DNA of 34,582 nucleotides from positions 1-34,582 of IMG/VR virus record IMGVR_UViG_3300020478_000028; one strand, 5' to 3'. The notes under the pieces were generated by a model that saw only the letters and a list, made by a program, of their open reading frames with translations, searched no databases and was not told the DNA's origin. Below, piece after piece: positions 9,313 to 33,829 of this stretch (position 1 is the first letter of the stretch; each line of letters opens with the position of its first letter). This DNA comes from a virus. Both the position numbers and the translations under genes were made by a program.

Positions 9313-9499
9313 GGTTACAACTCCCTTCCATAGGTACAGCTAATCTCTGTGTAGTAACATCTGAATCGCACCTCGTACACCTAATAATAATTTCCCCATC
9401 ACTAGAGAAAGCAACTTCTAATCTCTCTTTAGTGGTTACACCACTAGGCATAGTTCTAATACAATTCTTACAATGAATAAACATTATATTCTTAGCCAT
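9299..9499 (-). CDS. Small Cys/His zinc-finger-like protein
   Basis: The 66-residue product carries CKNC near the start, CTRC at about 41-44, and a final C-N-H-D-H. That pattern suits a zinc ribbon followed by a second metal-ligand cluster. It starts within the stop of the upstream gene (TAATG) and overlaps the next gene, so it is firmly embedded in the operon. No family is assigned. Confidence 0.6.
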   Translation of the reverse strand: MAKNIMFIHCKNCIRTMPSGVTTKERLEVAFSSDGEIIIRCTRCDSDVTTQRLAVPMEGSCNHDHV

Positions 9500-10086
9500 T
9501 ATTCTTCCTCGCTCTCTGTGTTAAGAACTTCCTTTATAAAGTCATCAACTGATGATGAATTTAGTTCCTCTACTAAATCACTATCAGAAGTAACTATCAT
9601 AGATGAGATAACATCTGGTTGTCCTAGCACAATAGCAATAGGAAAATCAATCTCGTGGTTGTCCATTAACTTAGCCCACTGCTTATCCTTTGTAATCATA
9701 TGGACACCAGATAGTAATACTTCTTTAAATACCTTTGCTATATCCTCATCAGATTTACAATCCTTTAAATTAACGACACCATCACTGATGCCTTCTGTGA
9801 ATACATCTGCTACAAAATGACACCAACTTTCTAGTATATGCTTAGTATTTTCCTCTACTAATTTCATAAAATAGTCGTGCATTAATTCAACAGGACTATT
9901 TTTAGGTGCAAATACTTTATCTCTTGTTACCATTTTTCCATCTTTTATATCAAAAGAGGTTAAAGCAAATATTCTAGGTGAGAATCCGTCATAACTTAAC
10001 AAAGGATTAAACCCAAGCTGTTTAGCTTTCTCTACCATTCTGTCAAAGCTATCTCTAAACTCATCAAAACCATCATCACTAGCCAT
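9499..10086 (-). CDS. Unknown protein, 195 residues
   Basis: It has GGGAGAG about 8 bases before the start. The N-terminus is helical and charged, the middle has beta-like segments (PRIFALTSFDI) and the C-terminal 30 residues are strongly acidic, like several other products of this operon. I recognise no motif. Its position suggests a job linked to the ATPase and VWA machine or to early takeover of the host. Confidence 0.6.
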   Translation of the reverse strand: MASDDGFDEFRDSFDRMVEKAKQLGFNPLLSYDGFSPRIFALTSFDIKDGKMVTRDKVFAPKNSPVELMHDYFMKLVEENTKHILESWCHFVADVFTEGISDGVVNLKDCKSDEDIAKVFKEVLLSGVHMITKDKQWAKLMDNHEIDFPIAIVLGQPDVISSMIVTSDSDLVEELNSSSVDDFIKEVLNTESEEE

Positions 10087-10102
10087 ATTTCACTCTCCCT
10101 TT

Positions 10103-10444
10103 CTACTGTTCCTCTTCATGAGCCATGCCTTCGTTCTCATACTTTATAAGAAGGTACACATATCCTTTAGCACCTTCTCTATAAGTAGAGCGAAACCTAT
10201 AGCCCGTATCAGAGAACACTTCTCTTAATTTAGTTACCCTCGTTCTTATACTTCCTTGTGAGTAAGAATTATCGGGCAACATATCCATAACAAACTCTTT
10301 GTTAGGATTTTTTCTAGCTTTATCTAAAATACTTTTGTTCTTTTTAAAGTATTTCAATCGCCTTTCATCATTTGTTAATGGAGTTCTACCTTTAATCTTA
10401 TTAATTCTAGGTTTGAACTCATTACCAATTTCTTTTGTACTCAT
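10103..10444 (-). CDS. Small basic protein, possible winged-helix DNA binder
   Basis: The 113-residue product is strongly basic in its first 50 residues. Around residues 55-100 it has N-S-Y-S-Q-G-S-I-R-T-R-V-T-K-L-R-E and then an R-F-R-S-T-Y-R-E-G turn with Y-V-Y-L-L-I strand, which looks like a recognition helix followed by a wing. It is the first gene of the operon, with AAGGAG six bases before the ATG. Directly upstream lies the large structured element at 10465-11084, which would be its leader if both are on one transcript. A regulatory role is plausible but unproven. Confidence 0.55.
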   Translation of the reverse strand: MSTKEIGNEFKPRINKIKGRTPLTNDERRLKYFKKNKSILDKARKNPNKEFVMDMLPDNSYSQGSIRTRVTKLREVFSDTGYRFRSTYREGAKGYVYLLIKYENEGMAHEEEQ

Positions 10445-10464
10445 GCTATCTCCTTCCTTTATAA

Positions 10465-11084
10465 ATAGCTAAGAGCGTACACTAACTTGAATCGCAATAG
10501 ATAATAAGGGGGATTATCTACAACAGCATACGCTCTTAGCTATCTACTTTCGGTCATCAGTTTGAAACAGGGCTGTAAATAACTGACTCCTACTCATAGA
10601 TAGCCCCGACTTGCTACATATAAGACACTATGCAAACAAAAGGGGTACTTAACAACCCTATAAACATGTGCCTCATAGATAGCCTAGAACAGACACTAAT
10701 CCATGAGATGTTGCCAAAGGTTTACTTCCAACTCGTATCTTCGCTTCCTGCTAACTTGTTGTTTATCTTTTAGGTGTAGTTGTTACACTACGGCTCACAT
10801 CAGGGTAGTCAATGTTTTACTTATAGCTATAAGTGTATCTGTTCTAAGCTATCTACCTTATAGATAGCACGATACTTACAACTTGTCCGAATAACTTTTA
10901 TAGGTTGCTTTGCAACAGAGAGAACATCAGCTCTTGTATAAGTATCGTGCTACCTACTAACCTTACGCAAGTGTCCAAACTTGTTATTACTTAGTAAGTA
11001 GCTGGGCTTAGCGTAGATTAACCACGCATACTCGTAGCTTTAACAATATAGCTCATAACTATATACGAGATATGGTTAAGCCCA
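10465..11084 (-). ncRNA. Candidate large multi-helix structured RNA, about 620 nt
   Basis: No credible ORF lies here, but the stretch is covered by stems. Pairs (plus coordinates) are: 11077-11084 with 11003-11010, 8 bp; 10991-11002 with 10949-10960, 12 bp; 10939-10952 with 10865-10878, 14 bp perfect; 10835-10855 with 10676-10696, 21 bp; 10665-10672 with 10624-10632, 8 bp with a bulge; 10597-10604 with 10539-10546, 8 bp; 10581-10587 with 10556-10562, 7 bp; 10529-10543 with 10465-10479, 15 bp perfect. The five imperfect positions in these stems are C-A on the plus strand but G-U on the minus strand, so the RNA is most likely minus-sense, like the flanking genes. Several helices abut with no gap. 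It could be a free RNA of the GOLLD/ROOL kind or a giant leader for the 10444-6007 operon. No promoter is clear. Confidence 0.6.
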
Positions 11085-11086
11085 AT

Positions 11087-11116
11087 AAAAAAGGTGCGTA
11101 TATACTACGCACCTTT
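11087..11116 (-). terminator. Intrinsic terminator after the Cys-rich gene
   Basis: An 11-bp stem (11090-11100 with 11106-11116, core GGTGCGTA) with a 5-base loop is followed on the minus strand by TTTTTTATT. It lies 24 bases beyond the stop of the 11140-11589 gene. It also ends three bases before the first helix of the large structured element, so it may instead be that element's first hairpin. On the plus strand the T-run after the stem is weak. Confidence 0.75.
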
Positions 11117-11139
11117 ATAGTTCTTATATATAAGGACTA

Positions 11140-11589
11140 CTAACAGTAGTCGCATACCATACTGTAAGGTAGCTTTAAACTACATGTCTTACAGTAAGGC
11201 TCAAACAATTCCTTATGACTAGAGCAACAACCTTCCTCTATCTCATGGTTGTATACACTATCCTCATATAGGAGTAGTTTGCTTTCATAGTCAGCATCAG
11301 TAACACTATCAGTATTACCTTCCTTTATAGAGTTATCCTTTATAGCAATCGTATCGTGAATACTAGCTAAGTATTCCTCGTGTTCCTTACTATCTACCTT
11401 AAAGTCTACCTCTCTACAAGAGTAACAAGCTCTAGTAGAGGAAGTATTCTTACGGCAGAATATACAAGTTCCTTCTGGACTTGGTATATCAGGTCTTATA
11501 GTAGGCTCTCTCATACTAGATATGGTAGAGCCTTCTTTATATACACCCTTAGGATAACCTGTAATCTTATCTATTTTCTTATTAGTCAT
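11140..11589 (-). CDS. Cys-rich protein with several CxxC pairs
   Basis: AGGGGA lies a few bases before the ATG at 11589, and a terminator follows the stop, so this looks like a one-gene unit. The 149-residue product has CIFC and C-Y-S-C pairs at about 42-58, an acidic middle part, and a C-terminal cluster with C-C-S-S-H, C-K-T-C and a closing CDYC. Two zinc-binding modules separated by a linker are likely. Its function is unknown. An overlapping plus-strand ORF (11380-11748) has no ribosome site and no protein-like features. Confidence 0.65.
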   Translation of the reverse strand: MTNKKIDKITGYPKGVYKEGSTISSMREPTIRPDIPSPEGTCIFCRKNTSSTRACYSCREVDFKVDSKEHEEYLASIHDTIAIKDNSIKEGNTDSVTDADYESKLLLYEDSVYNHEIEEGCCSSHKELFEPYCKTCSLKLPYSMVCDYC

Positions 11590-12046
11590 AGATTCCCCTT
11601 TATACTTTATGTGTATATGTATAAATACACCGAGATTTTTTCTCGCAACTTCAACCTAACACCTTCTACTATGTTTAGTAAGAGTATATACTTGAATGAC
11701 TTGACAACCCCTATGCGGTGTTACTATGCACATACGATATATATTTAAATATATAGATGAAAAAAAAATTTAATATTTTTTTTCTATATAGCCCTATGAA
11801 AGTATTAATTTGTTACTTCGCATTAAATCAATAGAGCTGAGAGGGGTTCACATTTTTATATATAAACATTATGCATACTCATAGACTATACATATTCATA
11901 GACTATGCATACTCATATGACTATACATAAGTAATAGGGCTGAGAATGATTGACTCGCATATGCATATTTATTGTGATTTAGAGCTGTTGAATTTTCCTA
12001 TGCGTAAAAAAAATTTTTTAGATTTTACCCTTATATACTCTATATA
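11590..12046. other. Gene-free AT-rich control region with iterons
   Basis: No gene is visible here. Items seen are a CGAGA/TCTCG hairpin (about 11631-11645), a TTGACA at 11701-11706 without a good -10 at the usual distance, and a run of eight A and T-rich tracts at 11760-11790. There are two partly similar blocks containing AGCTGAGA (11834) and GGCTGAGA (11938), the tandem iterons at 11871-11922, and AGCTGTTG-led sequence at 11983-12006 that recurs at 12873-12897. The mix of iterons, AT-rich DNA and divergent flanking transcription is what a replication origin or master control region would show, but no initiator protein is recognised in the window. Confidence 0.5.
11871..11922 (+). repeat. 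Three tandem 17-18 bp iterons
   Basis: Copies lie at 11871-11887, 11888-11904 and 11905-11922, with a partial fourth from 11923. The consensus is ATGCATACTCATAGACT, and copies differ from it at one to three positions. There is no spacer between copies, so this is not a CRISPR array. Direct iterons of this length usually bind a replication initiator or repressor. Confidence 0.75.
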
Positions 12047-12055
12047 TGGTATAAT
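12047..12055 (+). promoter_or_regulatory. Extended -10 promoter, TGGTATAAT
   Basis: A perfect TATAAT (12050-12055) is preceded by TG at the extended -10 position. There is no good -35, which extended -10 promoters do not need. The predicted start is near 12062, at the foot of a strong hairpin. No ORF follows on this strand before the terminator at 12291-12317, so it probably drives an untranslated RNA. Confidence 0.65.
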
Positions 12056-12061
12056 TAATTA

Positions 12062-12317
12062 TAGAGAAAAACCCAACAAAATTAGGCTTTTTCTCTGAGC
12101 GACCAAATAAGCCGATTTAAGACCTAGTTTTTGAATCTGGGCTACAACTACCCACAAAAGCCCAAGATATGTCTTAGAATCAATCCTCGCAGGGCTTAGC
12201 CCTATTCTGTAAGCAATAAAAGAATCTTAGATATATATTTTGATTAGGTTTATTTTATGCATTATGCATAGGGGCAGGGCATAAAAAAAAGCCCCTCTAT
12301 TCCTAGAGGGGCTTTTT
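12062..12317 (+). ncRNA. Candidate promoter-to-terminator small RNA, about 255 nt
   Basis: The stretch runs from an extended -10 promoter to an intrinsic terminator and holds no credible ORF. It can form a 5' hairpin (12063-12074 with 12085-12096, 11 of 12 paired). A long bent hairpin follows (12116-12123 with 12171-12178, then 12135-12143 with 12159-12168 around one bulged A), and then a small GGGC/GCCC hairpin (12191-12203). One pair, T12117 with G12177, is a wobble only in the plus sense, which agrees with the promoter. It is transcribed toward, and shares its terminator with, the opposing gene at 12326-12757. Its function is unknown: a regulatory RNA or an origin-linked transcript are options. 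Confidence 0.5.
12283..12317. terminator. Bidirectional intrinsic terminator
   Basis: A 9-bp GC-rich perfect stem, GCCCCTCTA at 12291-12299 with its complement at 12304-12312 and loop TTCC, is flanked by eight A on the left and five T on the right. It can stop the plus-strand RNA starting near 12062 and the minus-strand gene whose stop lies at 12326. Confidence 0.9.
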
Positions 12318-12325
12318 AGTTTAGC

Positions 12326-13004: not shown

Positions 13005-13043
13005 AATCTAGATGTAAAGTTTAGATTTAGATTTCCTATATAC
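13005..13043 (+). promoter_or_regulatory. Copy of the late promoter/operator element
   Basis: AATCTA, then TTTAGATTTAGATT and C-TATATAC occur here in the same order and spacing as at 33791-33828 ahead of the scaffold gene. Here the -35 hexamer is degenerate (GTAAAG in place of TTGACT) while the -10-like TATATAC is kept. It may be an activator- or repressor-controlled version of the same promoter, reading toward the terminase block. Confidence 0.5.
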
Positions 13044-14726: not shown

Positions 14727-14830
14727 GTCACCCAGTTCCAGGACAAACTTATTATTGTGAGGATTGTCAGGAACTATTAGAAGATGGACCTCATAGATGT
14801 ATACATGTAACAGGAAATATTTATGCCTAA
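14723..14830 (+). CDS. Zinc-knuckle micro-protein, 35 residues
   Basis: A GTG start overlaps the upstream stop (GTGA), with AGGGGAAG ahead, and the stop overlaps the terminase start by eight bases. The product has C12-x2-C15 and a later C26-x-H28, enough to hold one zinc ion. Tight overlaps on both sides are the main evidence that it is translated. Its function is unknown. Confidence 0.5.
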   Translation: MSHPVPGQTYYCEDCQELLEDGPHRCIHVTGNIYA

Positions 14831-18974: not shown

Positions 18975-21900
18975 ATGTCAGAAATTAGATGGTGGTGGCA
19001 ACCTACGTGGTCTGAAGAGCTAGAAGAAGAAACTCAAAATGAAAGATTCTTGCAAGCTACTCAATTTGTAGATGCCTTAGAGTCTAATCCAAATATAGCA
19101 AGTAACTTAAAAGGTTTAATAGAAGAAAATTTTTATTTACCAAGAGATATATTAATTGGTTCTGCATTAATGGGATTAACTTCTGATTCCCCAGAATTAG
19201 CTCCATTAGTAGAGAGATGGTTAGATGTTGAAAAGACTTGGTGGGATAGAACTAAAGGTGCTATGAAAGGAGCTGTTAGGGGAGCATTTGTAGCATTTGA
19301 TTCTATACAAGATGAGCTAGTTAAGAAACCTATATTATCTACACAAAAATATTTAAATGATAGAAAACATCAAGATGGTCAAGGCTTAGTAACAGCAATG
19401 ACACAATTATTATTTGACAAAGAAGCACAATCAGAATGGCAAAAGACTAGACAACATCTGGGTCCTTCTGTAGGTAGGGAAGCAATTAAAAAAGCTCTAG
19501 CTGGTGAGAAGGTAAACTTAGGTGAAGGATTCTTTGGAAATTCAACATTAGCAGAGAATACAGATATTTATAAAGAAATGGTTGGTAGAGGTGCTGACCC
19601 AGAAGAAGTAAAGAAAATAGTTCAATCATACTATGGAGAAGATATAACTAATTCTGAACAAGCAAGGGATGAGAGTCTTACTATTAAATCTAAACATGGA
19701 ACAGTTAAACTTACTCCAGCAGCTCAGCTTTTTGCTAATATATTAGAACCTGGAAGCAAATCATATAATATATCAACAGGTATTGTTGATGGATTGTTTA
19801 CACTTGTTGCTGACCCAACAATACTTATTGGTGGATATTTATCTAAAGCTGGGAAAGTTACTAGGTCATTAAGCCAAGGCGAAGTTTTAAAAGGTGCTGG
19901 AATTGTTAATAAAGCTGTAAGAAAAACAGTTCATGTTCCTTCTGCAGTTGAATATGTAACAAGAAATCCAGGTGGTAGAAAAATTGTAGAGCAATTAGTT
20001 AAAGCAGAAGACTATGGAACTGTAGGTAGATTATTAGGTAAACGAGGTAGTAGTGGTGCTGACGCTATATTACATAAGAATTTAAAACTAGCAAAAACAA
20101 CTAGAGAAGTAGAAGACTTATTAGTAGCCGCTATTGAAGGTGGAGAGATTACTAAAAAATTAAATCCTACATCTTTAATGTTTAGAGGAAAAGTATCTTC
20201 TAAATTAGGAAGTGTTTTAGGTGGAGAATTAGGAGAAGCTATAGGTCTGTCTGGAGTAATCAGAAGAAATATGAATGATACTGCTTTAGGTAGAATCTTT
20301 GAAACATTTCCTGCACCTAAATTACAAGTTAATGATTTTAATCAATCTTTCTTTGACTTACAAGATTGGATGAGATTTGCAAGAGTAGATGATGTAGTAG
20401 CAGAAAAAGCCTTAGATGATTTAGCAGAGTTAGCTCTTTCTCAAAAAGGTGCTTCTTCTACAACTAAAGCTCAAGCTGTTAGGAACATGAATGAAATATT
20501 AAATATCTGGGATGATGTTCAAAGACATATTGCACAAAAGTTTGAGAACATAGGATTACCTCCTCAGTTAATGAAGGGAGTAAAAAATTGGATGGCTAGT
20601 ATAGATGAGACTCGTATGTATTTTACAAATACATTAGGAGAGCTTGAATATTTTCCTGGAAGTAAAATAGAAGATTTACCATTTATGACATTCTTTGCTG
20701 AACAATTAACAGATGATGAGGCTATGGGTCTTGTAGCAAGAGTATTAACTAGATACAGAAAATCTAACAAAATAGATACAGATGAATTAGATGCAATACT
20801 TGAAGATATAAAAAGTATATCTAATAATGCTACTACACCAGAAGATAGAGCATTAGTAGAGTATGTAACTGGTGGCTATTACGAAGGTGTAGAACAAGCT
20901 GGATTAAATATAGCAGAGGAAATAGGTATAAAAACAAGTGGTGCAGTTCCTTATGGTTATAGAGGTAAGGGTGGAACAATAGATGCACAAAGAATGAGGG
21001 AACTAGGACTAGATGATTTATCAGAAACAGAAAAAGCTAGACAATTAAAAAATCTTTCTAACGCTAGGCAGGATGCTTTATCAGAAATAGGCATGGAAGT
21101 AGCAAAACTTCCTAGAAAATTAAGAAGTAAAATGCAGAGAAATATGGAATCATTAGATGGTTTAGAGGTTTCTACACGAAATTTAACTGATAAAATTCAA
21201 GGCTTAAAAGTACAGATAGATGAAATAGCTAAACAATTTAAATCTTCACCAGAAAATATAAAAAAATATAAACAAGAATTTCCTGAATCAACAACTAAAG
21301 AAGCAAAAGAAGCTATAGCTGAACAATTAGAAGATGCTCTTAGACCAATTAAAGATGAGCTATCAACTTCTATTAAAGATAGAACAAGAGTTGACTCTGA
21401 GATAAGTAGATTAACTAATGAGATTCAAGATACTGTTCCTTCTTATAAAGGTTTATCAGAAGTAGAAAAGAAAAATTTATATGATGAAAAATTTTGGGAA
21501 CAAGATTTTGCAACAATGAAACTTGATAAACAAGAAATAAGTAGAGTATCAAGATATAACTTAGATAATGCAGATATGACAATAATATTTACTGGTGCTG
21601 CTAAAGGCGGTCAAGGTATGAAACAAGTTATTAATTACTTAGAAAAAGGAACTCATGTTATAGAAGAAGGTATAAAAGGATTAAAACCAGGTGTATATCA
21701 AGGACATAAACCATATGCAGTTGTAGATTTATCAGCAGGTTTTACAAAACAACAAGCAGAAGAAATACAAAGATTTGCTGAATTAAATAATATTAAAAGT
21801 ATTAATATTTCTGGACCTAGTGATTTCACAATAGCAGAAGAAGCATTGATGAAAACAGCAATGGAAGATATATTCTTTGTACAAAAACAATTTGATTCAC

Positions 21901-24900
21901 AACTAACAATAGGTAATGTTAAATCAGCTATTGATAATGCTTTAGATAATACTAAACCTGCAGATTTGTCATCTAGGTATGCAGATAAAACTAAAAGCGT
22001 AGCTCAAGATTTACAAGATGAAATCTCTAATAATACAGATTTACAAAAGATAGCTAACAATATAAAACCTAAGCCAACAGCACATCTAATCTCAGAATAT
22101 TTTGACCAAGGTGTGCTACCTATGCCTGATGCTAGATTATTTCTTAGAGTATTTAGACCTATGAGAGATTTAATGTTGAGATTATCTGGTAGAGCTGTAA
22201 GAGCTGGTGATGACTATGAAAGATTATTAGCTAAACCTGTAACTAATCTTGCTGAGTTAGCACTTAAAGATGATAAAACTGCAGTGGATACTATAAAGTT
22301 AGCTGTTAAAAAAGCAAGATTAAATATTAAGTTGAGTGGAAACGAAGATGAAGTAGCAGAAATAACAGAAGGTATATTTACAATGGTTGGTGATGGGTAT
22401 ATGCAAAGAATATGGAAACCAAGTATTCTTTTAAGACCAGCTTGGGTAGTAAGAGTTGTAGGTGAAGAACAAATTCGTATGTGGGCAGAAGGTTTAGATA
22501 ATGTATTTGCTCATCCATTTTCTGCTTTTGCATGGGTACTAGGTAGAAAACCAAGTAGAAATGCTAAATTTCTAAAATCACAAAGAGAAAAGTTAAGAGA
22601 TGATTATTTAGCCGATACTTTAAATTTAGGTAGAGGTGGTACAGATATATTTGATGAATCATTAGACCTAGCTTTAGAACATGCACAAGCAATGACAACA
22701 ACACATGGTGGTATGGTTATAGGTTTTGACCCTAAAAGAGCTAGAGGATTTACACAAGTAACAAAAACAGATAAAAGATTTTATGGAGGTGGAACAAAAG
22801 AACTTTTACAATTAGCAGATGACCCATTAGCTACTCGTATAGCTCAAATAGAATTTAATCCTGTTAGAGGTAAGGAAGATTTTAATTTACAACTACAAAA
22901 AATAAAAGATGATTTTTGGGATGGGAATTTAAGAGAGTGGAGAGAAGCGTTTATTAACAATACAGATGATTTGAGTAGAGGTCAAAAAGCTATAATAGGA
23001 AATAGTAGAGCACATGCAGATTCTTATATAGATTCAGTAGTTGCAAGGTTGCATGATAAAACAGGTGGTAAATATAGAGCTGTAGAATATACACCTGATG
23101 GTAAGTTTGTAGGAAACGTATGGGATGAGAACTCTATAAAACCTACTATTCAAAATGAAAACAATATTATTAAATATATAATAACACAATCTGGTGATGA
23201 AGAATTAATAGGTCATATTGCAAGAAATGAAAATCAGTTTATAAAGATATTAAATAACTCAGGTGAAGAAGTGAGTATGAAATTTACTAGAGAAATGTCA
23301 GAAAGTCAGTATAAGCAATATAAAGAATGGTTAGCAAAAAGAAAGAATGGTGTATGGGATGACACACATCACTTTAAAACATCAAGAACTGATGTTACTG
23401 GGGATGTAGTAGGAAAATATGATAGAGCATTAGAAACAGCATTTACTACTTTAATGGGTGTCCCAACAAATGATTTATCTCGTTCACCAGCATTTAGACA
23501 ATTTTACTGGAGATTTATTGAAAACATGTATGCAAATCTAGACAATGCTGCAAGAACTCAAGTATTTGCTCAAGCTAAAAAAATGATGGGTCGTTCTTTA
23601 CCTGGTAGTAGAGCAAGAAAATATCTTAAGAGCTTAGAAAATATGGGACAAGCTAATGCTTCTAAGTTATTAGGAGTAGACGATTTAAGACAAGTTGATG
23701 AATTAGCTAAAGCGTATGCTTTAACAGAAACTAAAAGTTTGCTATATGATTTAAATAAACGACATGTTATTACAGATATGGTTAGATTAGTGATGCCTTT
23801 TGCAGAAGTCTATCTTGAAATTGCTGGCACCTGGACAAGATTACTTAAGAATCAAAAGATGTTATTTGGAAGAAAAGTTCAAAGGACAGTAGAAGGTATG
23901 CGTAAACCTAGTCTTTTTGGTGAATATGAAGATGAAGGCTTCTTTACTACTGACCCACAATCAGGTGAAGAAATGTTTAATATGAATTTATTTGAGAATA
24001 TATTTAGTTTAGATAGGAGTTTAAATAATCCTAATCCAGATGCATTAGGGATAAATCCTATTACAGGTAGAGAAACAACAGAAGTTCCTGAAATAAATAC
24101 AAAACTTAGAGGATATGCTACTGGTTTAAATATGGTAGCAGGAGATATAATACCAGGTCTAGGACCTTTAGCTCAGATACCTGCTGCTGCAATATTACCC
24201 TCTACTCCTGATATAGATAGAACTTTTTTTCCTTATGGAAGACCAGAAGAAGGACTACCACATCTTGCTAATCCTATATATTATGCTAAACAAGCTATAC
24301 CTAGTTACTTTAGAAAAGTAATTTCTGCTGCTGATATTGAAGACCCAGAGTTTCAAAGAGCTTATGTTAATCAAGTAAAAGAAATACAAAGAGCTATGTT
24401 TATGACTAATACTTATGATGATTCTACACCTGAACAAGAGGTTGCATCATTAGAGAAAGCTAAGAAATTAGCTACACAAAGTTTATTACATAGAGCTTTT
24501 ATACAATGGATAGCTCCTACTGGTGCCGTTATACAATATGATTATCAAATAGGACCAGGAGGTAGAGCCTATCTAGACCCAAGAGAAACAGAAGGAGACC
24601 CAGAAGGTAAATACTTTGCACAAACATTATTAGCAGATGCTTATTATCAAATGTTAGCTAAAGCAAAAGGTGATAGAGTTGTAGCTATTGCACAATTTAT
24701 TAAAGTATTTGGTTTTGACCCTACAGCTTTATTAACTTCAAAATCTAAACAAATTAAAAAAGTTTCTTTTACAGACGAAGGTGGATACTTTAAGCAAGAG
24801 AATGAAGAAATATTTAAAAAGTATCCTGATGTTGCATACTATATGTATCCAGATAGTCCATTAGATGAATTTAATTGGCAAGCATGGAATGAAGCATTCT

Positions 24901-25466
24901 CTGATGGAGATAGAGTAGATTTAACTCCAGAACAATATAAACAAGCTGTGAGACAAGCTCAAGGTAGTTTAGCTTATGAACATGCTAGAAGAGTCATAAT
25001 GGATGGACCAATGTATGCAAGTCTTCCTTATCATAAAAGAGCTGAACAATTATATCTAATTAGATTACAATTACAGAAACAATTCCCTGGTTATGGAGAT
25101 ACTTCAACAGCTCCACAATCATTAACAACTGAAGCTAAAATAAAGCAAATAACTGAAATGATACAAAGAGATGGTGATTCATCTATTACATTACCTGATG
25201 GTTCAACTAAAAAATTAAAAGATATGCCTTCAATGAAAGGAATAGTTAAATATCTATCTGCAAGACAAAGAGTATTAAATATAATAAAATCAGAACATGG
25301 AATAAATGCTACACTAAGTAGAGCAGAGGCTTCTGAATATAGAAGTTATTTAAGAGGTTTTGCTCAAAAACTTATGTTAGAGCATCCTGACTTTTATTTT
25401 ATATACTTTGATGTGTTTAGAGTAGAGGTAGAAGAAGAGATGAGTTATTATGGAGAAGATATTTAA
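18975..25466 (+). CDS. Giant virion protein with a split cpYpsA/SLOG-like domain
   Basis: The 2163-residue product starts eight bases past AGGAGG. Residues 630-680 resemble the first half of the circularly permuted YpsA family of the SLOG superfamily: T-G-G-x3-G-V-E-Q-A-G, I-G-I-K-T-S-G and G-Y-R-G-K-G-G-T-I-D. After about 180 residues of charged coiled coil, residues 855-965 resemble the second half: R-Y-N-L-D-N-A-D-M-T-I-I-F, G-G-Q-G, P-Y-A-V-V-D-L, then I-N-I-S-G-P-S-D-F. The family normally has G-G-Q-T-G-x-D, and that motif is altered here. The rest is helical with amphipathic stretches and no other domain I can name. Position after the portal and size suggest an internal or ejected virion protein. 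SLOG domains bind nucleotides or related ligands. Confidence 0.75.
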   Translation: MSEIRWWWQPTWSEELEEETQNERFLQATQFVDALESNPNIASNLKGLIEENFYLPRDILIGSALMGLTSDSPELAPLVERWLDVEKTWWDRTKGAMKGAVRGAFVAFDSIQDELVKKPILSTQKYLNDRKHQDGQGLVTAMTQLLFDKEAQSEWQKTRQHLGPSVGREAIKKALAGEKVNLGEGFFGNSTLAENTDIYKEMVGRGADPEEVKKIVQSYYGEDITNSEQARDESLTIKSKHGTVKLTPAAQLFANILEPGSKSYNISTGIVDGLFTLVADPTILIGGYLSKAGKVTRSLSQGEVLKGAGIVNKAVRKTVHVPSAVEYVTRNPGGRKIVEQLVKAEDYGTVGRLLGKRGSSGADAILHKNLKLAKTTREVEDLLVAAIEGGEITKKLNPTSLMFRGKVSSKLGSVLGGELGEAIGLSGVIRRNMNDTALGRIFETFPAPKLQVNDFNQSFFDLQDWMRFARVDDVVAEKALDDLAELALSQKGASSTTKAQAVRNMNEILNIWDDVQRHIAQKFENIGLPPQLMKGVKNWMASIDETRMYFTNTLGELEYFPGSKIEDLPFMTFFAEQLTDDEAMGLVARVLTRYRKSNKIDTDELDAILEDIKSISNNATTPEDRALVEYVTGGYYEGVEQAGLNIAEEIGIKTSGAVPYGYRGKGGTIDAQRMRELGLDDLSETEKARQLKNLSNARQDALSEIGMEVAKLPRKLRSKMQRNMESLDGLEVSTRNLTDKIQGLKVQIDEIAKQFKSSPENIKKYKQEFPESTTKEAKEAIAEQLEDALRPIKDELSTSIKDRTRVDSEISRLTNEIQDTVPSYKGLSEVEKKNLYDEKFWEQDFATMKLDKQEISRVSRYNLDNADMTIIFTGAAKGGQGMKQVINYLEKGTHVIEEGIKGLKPGVYQGHKPYAVVDLSAGFTKQQAEEIQRFAELNNIKSINISGPSDFTIAEEALMKTAMEDIFFVQKQFDSQLTIGNVKSAIDNALDNTKPADLSSRYADKTKSVAQDLQDEISNNTDLQKIANNIKPKPTAHLISEYFDQGVLPMPDARLFLRVFRPMRDLMLRLSGRAVRAGDDYERLLAKPVTNLAELALKDDKTAVDTIKLAVKKARLNIKLSGNEDEVAEITEGIFTMVGDGYMQRIWKPSILLRPAWVVRVVGEEQIRMWAEGLDNVFAHPFSAFAWVLGRKPSRNAKFLKSQREKLRDDYLADTLNLGRGGTDIFDESLDLALEHAQAMTTTHGGMVIGFDPKRARGFTQVTKTDKRFYGGGTKELLQLADDPLATRIAQIEFNPVRGKEDFNLQLQKIKDDFWDGNLREWREAFINNTDDLSRGQKAIIGNSRAHADSYIDSVVARLHDKTGGKYRAVEYTPDGKFVGNVWDENSIKPTIQNENNIIKYIITQSGDEELIGHIARNENQFIKILNNSGEEVSMKFTREMSESQYKQYKEWLAKRKNGVWDDTHHFKTSRTDVTGDVVGKYDRALETAFTTLMGVPTNDLSRSPAFRQFYWRFIENMYANLDNAARTQVFAQAKKMMGRSLPGSRARKYLKSLENMGQANASKLLGVDDLRQVDELAKAYALTETKSLLYDLNKRHVITDMVRLVMPFAEVYLEIAGTWTRLLKNQKMLFGRKVQRTVEGMRKPSLFGEYEDEGFFTTDPQSGEEMFNMNLFENIFSLDRSLNNPNPDALGINPITGRETTEVPEINTKLRGYATGLNMVAGDIIPGLGPLAQIPAAAILPSTPDIDRTFFPYGRPEEGLPHLANPIYYAKQAIPSYFRKVISAADIEDPEFQRAYVNQVKEIQRAMFMTNTYDDSTPEQEVASLEKAKKLATQSLLHRAFIQWIAPTGAVIQYDYQIGPGGRAYLDPRETEGDPEGKYFAQTLLADAYYQMLAKAKGDRVVAIAQFIKVFGFDPTALLTSKSKQIKKVSFTDEGGYFKQENEEIFKKYPDVAYYMYPDSPLDEFNWQAWNEAFSDGDRVDLTPEQYKQAVRQAQGSLAYEHARRVIMDGPMYASLPYHKRAEQLYLIRLQLQKQFPGYGDTSTAPQSLTTEAKIKQITEMIQRDGDSSITLPDGSTKKLKDMPSMKGIVKYLSARQRVLNIIKSEHGINATLSRAEASEYRSYLRGFAQKLMLEHPDFYFIYFDVFRVEVEEEMSYYGEDI

Positions 25467-31249: not shown

Positions 31250-32691
31250 TGCCAGATGAAGTAACTATATATGGTCCAGATGGACAAACTCGAGAAGTTC
31301 CTTTTGAGGATGTTCATTTATGGACTGGTAATGAATGGAGTAGAACACCACCTGAAGCTGCGAAACCACAAGCTAACTGGTTACATAGTAATAAGTTAGT
31401 TGCAGATTATGTATATACAAAAAATGGAATAGTATATTTTGCATACGATATATCAGAATTAGTAGGTTATCCTGCTTATATTTCTTATGAAGCTAATGGT
31501 TTAGCTATTAATGATTACACAACTAATTGGGGTGTAGATTTAGCAGGTAATGATAGAAAAGGACCTGCAATGTCATACACACCTCCTCCAGGAGAAGTTA
31601 TAGAAGACCCTAGTTTAACAATGACAGGATTCTCAGTAGGCGGTTCTTGGGCTCCAACAAATTTTGGAATAGACCCTACTACTGGATTAAGAATAAATAA
31701 AAATGGTTTCTCAAGTTTTGTATTTAGTGGTTTTAGAGAATTAGAAACTTCTTATCCATGGTTGTTTGATGAGGTAAATGGTCAAGCAGTTGGTCTTACA
31801 TTATTATTTAAATCTCTAGCATTAGGAACTCCTTTAACTGCAGAAGAACTTAATAGATATGGATTAACTTCAGGTTATACACAAGGTCAATTAGATTATA
31901 TAAATGCAACAATACTTACAGGAGGAGATGACCCATTATCTTTTAATTTAAATGGTGATACTGTAACAAATCAAAAGTATGCAAAACTATTAGGCACAAC
32001 AAAAGAAAAATTAAATACTGCATTAGAAGATTTAGGTATTAGTGCAGAAGCATTTGAAAGAGAGAACGCAGAATTGTATGAAACTTTATGGGGACAAGTA
32101 ACAAGAGGTAAGGTTACAGATACTTTATTAGATGAATACTTAGGATTTGTTCTAGGTATTGAAGGATATGGCTATTCAAAAGATAGTGATTTCTATGCAA
32201 TATTCTCAGGTCCTAGAAATGAACTTAATAATATTGGATGGAAACAAGATACTTCATCTTTTACAATGGGTATAAATGGTAAGAGCTCTGCTATACAATG
32301 GATAGGATTATCAAGATGGAACGGTCTTTCAAAAGAAGAACAAAATAGTCTTATTGAATTATATGCAAATGACCAAACAGAATTTGATAGAAGATTACAA
32401 ACTATGTTTGATAACGACCCAGTATGGGGTGAAAGATTTGGAGGAAAGAATCTAAAGTATTCTCAAGTAGTAGGTCCATATAAGACTTTCTGGCAAAATA
32501 CCTTTGGTGAAGTAGCTGATGAAGAAGACGAAGCATTCCTAGAAGGACTAGGATTATCACAACTAGATGCAAGAAAAAATTATAGAACTTCTGCTTATAA
32601 TAAAAGGAATAAATATTTTATGAATACTATGGCTGATAATATAACAACAAGTTTAGGCGGTAATATTCAAGGAGGATATAGGATAACATAA
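31249..32691 (+). CDS. Virion-associated protein of unknown fold, 480 residues
   Basis: It starts within the stop of the ART/GNAT gene (TAATG). The N-terminal 100 residues are beta-rich with Tyr and Trp (VTIYGPDGQTREVPFEDV), a Gly/Ser/Pro-rich stretch follows, then a long helical part and a Gly-rich end. No enzyme motif is seen. The opening (V-T-I-Y then P-D-G) resembles that of the next protein (V-T-I-Y-R-Y-D-A-P-D-G), hinting that both begin with a similar small module. It is part of the virion block by context. Confidence 0.65.
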   Translation: MPDEVTIYGPDGQTREVPFEDVHLWTGNEWSRTPPEAAKPQANWLHSNKLVADYVYTKNGIVYFAYDISELVGYPAYISYEANGLAINDYTTNWGVDLAGNDRKGPAMSYTPPPGEVIEDPSLTMTGFSVGGSWAPTNFGIDPTTGLRINKNGFSSFVFSGFRELETSYPWLFDEVNGQAVGLTLLFKSLALGTPLTAEELNRYGLTSGYTQGQLDYINATILTGGDDPLSFNLNGDTVTNQKYAKLLGTTKEKLNTALEDLGISAEAFERENAELYETLWGQVTRGKVTDTLLDEYLGFVLGIEGYGYSKDSDFYAIFSGPRNELNNIGWKQDTSSFTMGINGKSSAIQWIGLSRWNGLSKEEQNSLIELYANDQTEFDRRLQTMFDNDPVWGERFGGKNLKYSQVVGPYKTFWQNTFGEVADEEDEAFLEGLGLSQLDARKNYRTSAYNKRNKYFMNTMADNITTSLGGNIQGGYRIT

Positions 32692-33791
32692 TGGTAACAA
32701 TATATAGATATGATGCACCAGATGGAGAAACATTTGATGATGATTTTGTTAAAAATAATATAGACCCTGAAATAAAAAAGTTTAAAACTGCAAAAGCCTA
32801 TGCAGACCATTTAGTAGCAACTGCAAGTTATACTTATTCTAAAAATGAAATTAAAGAACCAAATAAGTCTTCCGTTGTTTCAACTGTAACTGAAGAAGAG
32901 CCATTAAACCTTAGTCCTAATCAGGTTTACCTACGCTTACCTTGGCTTAAATCATATGCAGGTGGTAATGCAGATAAGTTAGTAGATTCTTATATAAAAG
33001 GATTTATAGAAGGTGATGGTTCATTAGATGCTGCATTAGCAACTATGAGAGAATTACCAGAGTATGAAACAGTTTTTCCTGGTATTGTCAATGTAGAAAC
33101 AGGAGCTATAAGAATGAGTGAGAGTTCTTATGTAGCAGGATTTGAACAAGTCAAAGCATCTTTAATAGGTCAAGGTCTTGGAGGGTATGCTAAACAAAAA
33201 GGTAAAGAAATATATGCAACTATGGTAGGTAATCAAGTAGCTCCTAATGAATATATAAACAGAGTTAAAACTGTTAGAAGTAAAATATTTGACAGAATGG
33301 ATGAAGATATGAAACAGAATATTGTATCAGCTTACAATGATTATTATTCAAGTGAGTTAGGAGAGTCTGTTACATTAGATGAATCATCTATACTTGCTTT
33401 AGCTATAGACCCTAATTTAAATAATGAGATACTACAGAAAAGATTAAATGCTTCAGAACTAGGAGCTGTATATACAACTGAAATAGGTGAAGATGTTTCA
33501 CTCGAAAGAATACAAGAGTTTACACAAGCAGGAATTACATTAGGTCAAGCTAGAACACAGTTTGCTACTGCTGCTACAACTGCAAGATTATTAGGTAGTA
33601 TGGCTAGAAGGCAAAATAGAACTACTACTGTAGGTTCAGCAGCAAGAGTATTGGAAGCATCTTTATTTAAAGATTCTGAAGCAATAGAACAAATACAAGC
33701 TATAGAAGCACAGAATAGAACAGGAAGTTCTACAGCAACAGGTTCATATAGAGCACAAACAGGAGAAGTTACAGGATTAACTGAAACATAA
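32691..33791 (+). CDS. Virion-associated protein of unknown fold, 366 residues
   Basis: It is coupled to the preceding gene by TAATG and is the last gene before the scaffold promoter. A short N-terminal module (VTIYRYDAPDG) is followed by a Lys-rich helical part. Next come L-R-L-P-W-L-K-S-Y-A-G-G, a central helical domain and a C-terminal region rich in Ala, Thr, Arg and Gln, like the tails of proteins that pack inside capsids. No family is recognised. It is probably an internal or ejected virion protein. Confidence 0.65.
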   Translation: MVTIYRYDAPDGETFDDDFVKNNIDPEIKKFKTAKAYADHLVATASYTYSKNEIKEPNKSSVVSTVTEEEPLNLSPNQVYLRLPWLKSYAGGNADKLVDSYIKGFIEGDGSLDAALATMRELPEYETVFPGIVNVETGAIRMSESSYVAGFEQVKASLIGQGLGGYAKQKGKEIYATMVGNQVAPNEYINRVKTVRSKIFDRMDEDMKQNIVSAYNDYYSSELGESVTLDESSILALAIDPNLNNEILQKRLNASELGAVYTTEIGEDVSLERIQEFTQAGITLGQARTQFATAATTARLLGSMARRQNRTTTVGSAARVLEASLFKDSEAIEQIQAIEAQNRTGSSTATGSYRAQTGEVTGLTET

Positions 33792-33829
33792 ATCTAAACC
33801 TTGACTTTAGATTTAGATTCTTATATACT
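33791..33829 (+). promoter_or_regulatory. Late sigma70-type promoter with overlapping palindrome
   Basis: TTGACT (33801-33806) and TATACT (33824-33829) are separated by exactly 17 bases. An 8-bp palindrome, AATCTAAA-N7-TTTAGATT (33791-33798 with 33806-33813), spans the -35 box and may be an operator. A near copy lies at 13005-13043. It should drive scaffold and capsid transcription. Confidence 0.8.

Follow-up and report, generated by a model that had tools for sequence, protein, structure and literature searches.

The hairpins at which RNase III processes phage early transcripts (for example those of T7) are long, intergenic and on the coding strand, and lie just before ribosome-binding sites (RBS), ahead of unrelated genes. 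The put RNA elements of HK022 are phage-encoded, structured and thought to act in cis, largely independently of the genes that follow them, and integron or CRISPR-like arrays combine constant ends with variable contents and gain single units. GOLLD and ROOL, found in phages and prophages, are non-coding RNAs of large size and elaborate structure whose function is not established; GOLLD lies near tRNA genes, and ROOL is characterised by an oligomeric cage made of RNA only. GOLLD has a universally conserved 3' region and a variable 5' region, and its linkers can contain tRNAs (PMC12286853).

Here we analyse a stretch of viral DNA of 34,582 nucleotides (positions 1 to 34,582 of IMG/VR virus record IMGVR_UViG_3300020478_000028; hereafter the window) that appears to encode a new class of structured RNA on its minus strand, of a length comparable to that of GOLLD and ROOL, its nearest counterparts in size and setting. 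To our knowledge, no class described so far combines 8-bp constant ends with a 10-bp ruler that covaries, a fixed wobble, a linker hairpin that competes and swappable interiors, and a literature search by structure or sequence, of incomplete coverage, returned no description matching the RNA. The class belongs to an uncultivated phage clade and is absent from Rfam and from the isolated phages, plasmids and cellular genomes searched; the kind of function it serves, be it that of a processing site, an insulator, a switch or a particle, could prove familiar. It gives a clear search signature and comes with natural compensatory mutants (loci L078 and L079) and a natural knock-in pair (L061 and L007).

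A non-coding region of the window folds on the minus strand

The initial annotation had picked out positions 10465-11084, about 620 bases without a credible gene, as a minus-strand RNA with eight stems. Indeed, the longest open reading frame (ORF) touching this region has 57 aa and none is conserved; since relatives moreover differ by whole-hairpin insertions, a hidden protein-coding gene is ruled out. The structured RNA spans 10462-11084 (minus strand), a few bases past the original boundary. Folding of the minus strand yields -220.7 kcal/mol vs -168.2 ± 6.7 for shuffles (z -7.9), and the plus strand of the same region reaches z -5.5 against shuffles. Three inverted repeats (21, 18 and 18 nt; 90-94% complementary) follow each other and, counted with the remaining stems, make about eight in all, as had been proposed. 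The RNA has three long hairpins in succession (10956-10861, 10855-10676 and 10546-10462), with stems of about 20 bp and smaller stems between and before them. Their imperfect pairs are 7 C-A and 0 G-U on the plus strand, hence 7 G-U on the minus strand; the kind of mismatch had been correctly named and its number, given as five, was slightly low.

All long hairpins (H) begin UAGRUAGC and end GCUAYCUA, so that a fixed 8-bp base, whose 5' and 3' arms are called Y and X, encloses a swappable interior. From 5' to 3', the parts of the window RNA and the adjoining RBS are:

11003-11084, minus strand: 5' domain; closing helix GGGCUUA (11077-11083)/UAAGCCC and two internal hairpins, ending just 5' of the first X
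10949-11002, minus strand: linker hairpin L0; X0 GCUACUUACUAA (11002-10991) pairs with UUAGUAGGUAGC (10960-10949), which includes Y1
10861-10956, minus strand: hairpin H-A; Y1 UAGGUAGC (10956-10949) to X1 GCUAUCUA (10868-10861), 20-bp stem, U-G at pair 19
10676-10855, minus strand: hairpin H-C; Y2 UAGAUAGC (10855-10848) to X2 GCUAUCUA (10683-10676), stem of about 21 bp, 138-nt interior between the arms
10605-10675, minus strand: middle stem-loop region; loop CCCCUUUU (10645-10638), linker-like, Y degenerate
10539-10604, minus strand: linker domain K; X (10604-10597), loop-E-like AGUAGG..CCGAA pairing, covarying stem, conserved CCCUGUU (10572-10566), Y3 UAGAUAGC (10546-10539)
10462-10546, minus strand: hairpin H-D; Y3 to X3 GCUAUUUA (10469-10462), 22-bp stem
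10445-10459, minus strand: RBS AAGGAAGGAG (10459-10450), then GAUAGC (10450-10445), immediately followed by the ATG of gene 10103-10444

Only 5 nt separate X1 from Y2, and 17 nt separate the end of the last stem from the start codon (10444) of gene 10103-10444.

Relatives point to a single clade of uncultivated phages

With the terminase as bait, 75 loci were retrieved from IMG/VR; of these, six (L003, L004, L007, L036, L061 and L023) have an RNA whose homology is clear, located between the same genes or rearranged; the neighbour proteins 9499-10086 and 11140-11589, used as bait, gave no relatives. The modularity was recognised by comparing these six loci, which have constant ends, differing inner stems and loops, and hairpins added or missing. 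A wide scan with a single common stem, TAGRTAGCTTGTAGYACAY, matched at least 120 stretches of viral contigs; among the loci collected there are 203 hairpins (stem of at least 13) in 132 loci. Because scanning with one stem type biases stem-type frequencies, an unfiltered test of Y-X pairing and loci chosen by terminase only served as an offset. Among the latter, 20 of 24 have one or more hairpins of at least 15 pairs in the 10 kb upstream; without exception these lie on the minus strand (leftward), about 3.5-5 kb upstream of the terminase; such hairpins were found neither on the plus strand nor in reversed controls of the upstream regions of the 24 relatives and the window.

The H stem was not found in 84,980 cellular genomes, and searches for DNA relatives of the RNA among isolated phages and plasmids gave chance matches only. 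Relatives of window proteins are also encoded in 99 of 112 stem-scan loci (among the matches listed), and the terminase is present on 7 of 16 whole contigs, most of them from loci without window-protein relatives. On these grounds, gene content indicates that the RNA is a hallmark of one clade of uncultivated phages, which, judging by sample codes, are probably mostly marine.

No known family matches, and a fixed particle fits poorly

No Rfam family reached the gathering threshold in the whole window, and the GOLLD and ROOL covariance models, which the initial annotation had singled out for checking, gave no match at E<=5 in 10000-11700. Ten relatives were equally devoid of GOLLD, ROOL and other Rfam families, except for a tmRNA-like match in L133 outside the hairpins, and no tRNA genes were found in the window or in 20 relatives. 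The proposed identity with GOLLD or ROOL thus finds no backing in the models or in nearby tRNAs, and its companion suggestion, a new class, agrees with the missing Rfam match and with the modular architecture.

A trans-acting RNA of the GOLLD/ROOL kind, in which the whole 620-nt transcript folds into a separate, perhaps oligomeric, particle that has a function of its own during infection, would account for the similar length, complexity and phage location and for the conserved place 3.5-5 kb upstream of the terminase. It would also suit the tRNA- and tmRNA-like pieces of some relatives (L133 5415-5494; T-arm-like interiors), as GOLLD linkers can hold tRNAs (PMC12286853). We nevertheless consider it rather unlikely: a fixed particle would hardly allow the one (68 nt in L054) to four or more units, with unrelated interiors, that the relatives carry, the units stand before several different genes within one genome, and there is neither an Rfam match nor a tRNA island. 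Unlike in GOLLD, the conserved part is a repeated 8-mer base with its linker rather than a single 3' domain, unit number and interiors are free, and several intergenic copies occur in one operon.

RNAs of 75-81 nt that resemble only the tRNA-like domain of tmRNA occur in 5 of 50 related phage contigs (L133 5415-5494 (minus strand), directly after a hairpin; L201-L205); they have a GGGGGUG/CACCUCC acceptor stem with a G3-U70-type pair and a T-arm, and no mRNA part. Separately, one family of hairpin interiors (L082, L103, L104, L114, L119, L129 and L132) contains a hairpin resembling a tRNA T-arm, for example GUAGGUUCAAAUCCUAC.

The hairpin stems covary and wobble on one strand

We distinguished 22 stem types, in which pairs 1-8 are almost invariant, pairs 9-18 (ten pairs) vary freely through compensatory changes, and 18 of the 22 have U-G at pair 19. 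They contain 85 double-change cells vs 19.5 ± 4.3 when shuffled, with 99.1% of cells paired vs 22-46% in a slid register. Since the hairpins of this first set had been picked for pairing, we also tested unfiltered Y sites against the X that follows most closely downstream: leaving out the common type, the average was 10.2 of 12 inner pairs vs 7.0 ± 0.23 with permuted arms. Wobbles favour one strand by 605 to 21 across the 203 hairpins (among the matches listed), and 63 G-U stand against 2 A-C in the 22 stem types.

Close homologues tell the same story at the level of individual parts. Compensatory pairs amount to 4 of 63 and 9 of 34 in two comparisons. The 5'-domain helix is kept in the window, L003, L004, L036 and L061, with a compensatory A-U to G-C change at its end, and the inner GCGURG/CUACGC hairpin shows G-U/A-U compensation in the same five. 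H-A changes from U-G to C-G at pairs 161/230 and from C-G to U-A at 162/229, H-D has several pairs with compensatory changes among 4 sequences, and stem pairs of domain K (also present in L004, L007, L018, L023, L036, L061 and many others) change on both sides with pairing kept. L078 and L079 have flanks and interior ends in common and differ in their stems, which are changed on both arms; the interior ends of H-C recur in both with a different stem. The initial annotation had set its reading against two outcomes, homologues without compensatory changes and stems lost while an ORF is conserved; compensatory changes are present, stem pairs are kept and no touching ORF is conserved.

Altogether, the folding score (z -7.9), covariation above shuffled and permuted controls and compensatory pairs in close homologues argue for an RNA class, and the 605:21 wobbles assign its strand; we are nearly certain that this is a new, minus-strand class, as far as sequence comparison can tell. 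RNA structure is clearly under selection, as had been suggested for the minus strand, and wobble asymmetry and co-orientation with genes (below) agree with this. A DNA-level feature or chance (cruciforms, terminators, a composition artefact) might be invoked because inverted repeats are many in AT-rich DNA, but this would leave wobbles on one strand, no terminator flags or T runs at H, and none of these hairpins on the plus strand or in reversed controls; we hold it to be extremely improbable, and covariation refutes it.

The interiors measure 24-290 nt and are structured. They fall into 92 families among 165, some of them common to distant phages, while pair 19 stays U-G in 18 of 22 stem types, which suggests that interiors are tolerated.

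A linker hairpin competes for the Y arm

In 143 of 162 hairpins of the relatives, an X able to pair with Y lies upstream (2 with a control pattern), at a median of 53 nt before Y. The resulting linker hairpin, L, is about 50 nt long, and its stem extends past the shared 8 nt with 2.40 of 4 positions paired vs 2.05 ± 0.07 when permuted. A CCCY mid-loop, mostly CCCUGUU or CCCCUUU, occurs in 72 of 108 distinct linkers vs 12.1 ± 3.0 expected; the CCCC loop of the middle stem-loop region recurs in relatives' linkers, and the equivalent loop is replaced between L061 and L007. In the commonest linker form, the AGUAGG..CCGAA arrangement resembles a loop-E motif in sequence. Because the closing stem of L uses the same Y, L and H are mutually exclusive at the 8 Y bases. 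The frequency of the upstream X and the L-stem extension above permuted values favour an exchange of strands between the two; their overlap may in part be a by-product of copying one repeat sequence.

The competition could serve a switch of many registers assembled from interchangeable cassettes: each Y would have two equal partners, the upstream and the downstream X, branch migration would carry helices along the transcript, starting at the 5' domain and finishing at the last X, next to an RBS, and phages would rebuild the chain by whole-hairpin swaps at the 8-mers. We regard this as rather unlikely. Less probable still, indeed very unlikely, is a regulatory leader (riboswitch-like or a translational switch) in which register changes free or hide the RBS of the next gene. 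Two mutually exclusive helices do share Y, and in both the window and L004 a G[AG]UAGC that overlaps the start region can serve as a partner for the last X; from the window sequence, pairing of GAUAGC with X3 could hide the RBS if H-D opened (the alternative hairpin has -5.2 kcal/mol, z -2.7). Against this, just 11 of the 56 sites that can be compared have a G[AG]UAGC-type sequence (2 in the control), which led us to reject a universal RBS-hiding switch; the genes that follow are unrelated to one another, and we see no sign of a conserved pocket for a ligand.

Hairpins lie between co-oriented genes, just before start codons

Among the matches listed, and with crude ORF calls, 190 of 203 hairpins (94%) are intergenic vs 25% at random placement, and about 90% of neighbour genes lie on the strand of the RNA (166 of 184 downstream, 169 of 191 upstream). 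In many cases, the distance from the end of a hairpin to the start codon that follows is about 15-40 nt. Grouping the 50 downstream proteins gave many unrelated groups with no more than 5 members each, and several units stand before different genes within one genome. The large operon leader that had been considered therefore holds as to position, within an operon and ending just before an RBS, and fails as a leader tied to one gene, because downstream genes are unrelated and copies are several per genome.

The intergenic, co-oriented placement, the ends before start codons and the diverse downstream genes favour a role in cis within operons. We propose that the repeated unit X0-L-Y-H-X1 would act in cis in an early leftward polycistronic transcript. 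L would form first behind the passing RNA polymerase; once X1 emerges, the inner H stem would nucleate and Y would be handed from X0 to X1. The finished H would be a stiff rod of dsRNA, fixed in its length and constant at its ends. A protein specific for double strands, either host RNase III or a factor of the phage, would read it and process or insulate the transcript just upstream of the next RBS, and the interiors would be tolerated passengers or secondary functional modules. The cis-processing or insulation role is a tentative assignment that we would put below evens; the statement as a whole, a new RNA class with a cis-acting dsRNA ruler for processing or insulation, comes close to an even chance without quite reaching it.

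The ~20-bp intergenic stems before an RBS and the unrelated genes following recall the T7-type RNase III hairpins; the conserved 8-bp base, the fixed wobble at pair 19, the competing linker and the structured interiors set the present RNA apart. A simple processing site would not need shared, structured interiors of 24-290 nt or the conserved CCCUGUU/CCCCUU loop, which would be superfluous. HK022 put elements are alike in being phage-encoded structured RNAs thought to act in cis, largely independently of the next genes; they are much smaller and have no known sequence likeness, and there is no sign here of terminators placed after the element.

A scan for intrinsic terminators, whose G+C-rich stem is followed by a run of T, flagged no H stem, and no T runs follow H; its only call around the RNA, and outside it, was 11090-11116, a terminator-like hairpin that may block transcription from the preceding gene and, to that extent, counts against the operon reading. 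It is strong, ends on the minus strand in a U-rich tail, immediately precedes the RNA, and is present in L003 and L004 and absent from L036, L061 and L007. No sigma-70 promoter for the RNA was found in 10300-11140, and a repeated candidate phage promoter motif, TTATATAAGAACTA, was discarded, its frequency being not above chance.

No conserved RNase or dsRNA-binding protein was found tied to the RNA. A zinc-ribbon protein of ~47 aa (CDxCR..NVKSSV..CxTCGY; 26 loci including L018, L029, L031, L033, L036 and L061) is often the first ORF after the RNA and is absent from that place in the window; it was rejected as a dedicated partner, lying at most 80 nt from a hairpin in only 4 of 26 loci.

Units are gained and exchanged between phages

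L061 and L007 are near-identical, and L007 has exactly one extra hairpin unit of 86 nt, inserted at TAGG^TAGC, as well as a loop that is replaced farther along; L018 holds two identical hairpins. Such sequence comparisons show that phages gain and lose units and swap them with one another. Among the proteins encoded in the window are an exonuclease and one for single-strand annealing, and these could favour exchange wherever short sequences are shared.

These observations, together with interiors common to distant phages, are also what an array of recombining or mobile cassettes would give, with the 8-mers as exchange points, the interiors as cargo, and spread by annealing-type recombination between co-infecting phages. 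As the reason for the RNA, this is quite unlikely: it leaves unexplained the G-U-only asymmetry, the co-orientation with genes and the U-G at pair 19, and no integrase or transposase is linked to the RNA. Constant ends, variable contents and single-unit gains are shared with integron and CRISPR-like arrays; unlike there, the constant parts pair in RNA with G-U on one strand, both constant ends belong to one stem, and there is neither an integrase nor a uniform spacer length. Recombination probably accounts for the movement of units but not for their retention, for which the cis role proposed above is the reading we prefer.

Other observations in the window

Upstream of gene 11140-11589 lie about 700 non-coding, AT-rich bases (11590-12325) with a bidirectional terminator at 12286-12317. 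For the 2163-aa protein encoded at 18975-25466, the sole match was a weak one to a SLOG-type (cpYpsA) domain. A 29-nt imperfect direct repeat (79%) links 13005-13033 and 33791-33819, one copy lying at the end of gene 32691-33791. A 26-nt direct repeat (85%), possibly a promoter or operator, occurs at 2759-2784 and 14797-14822; the start codon of the terminase follows immediately on one copy.
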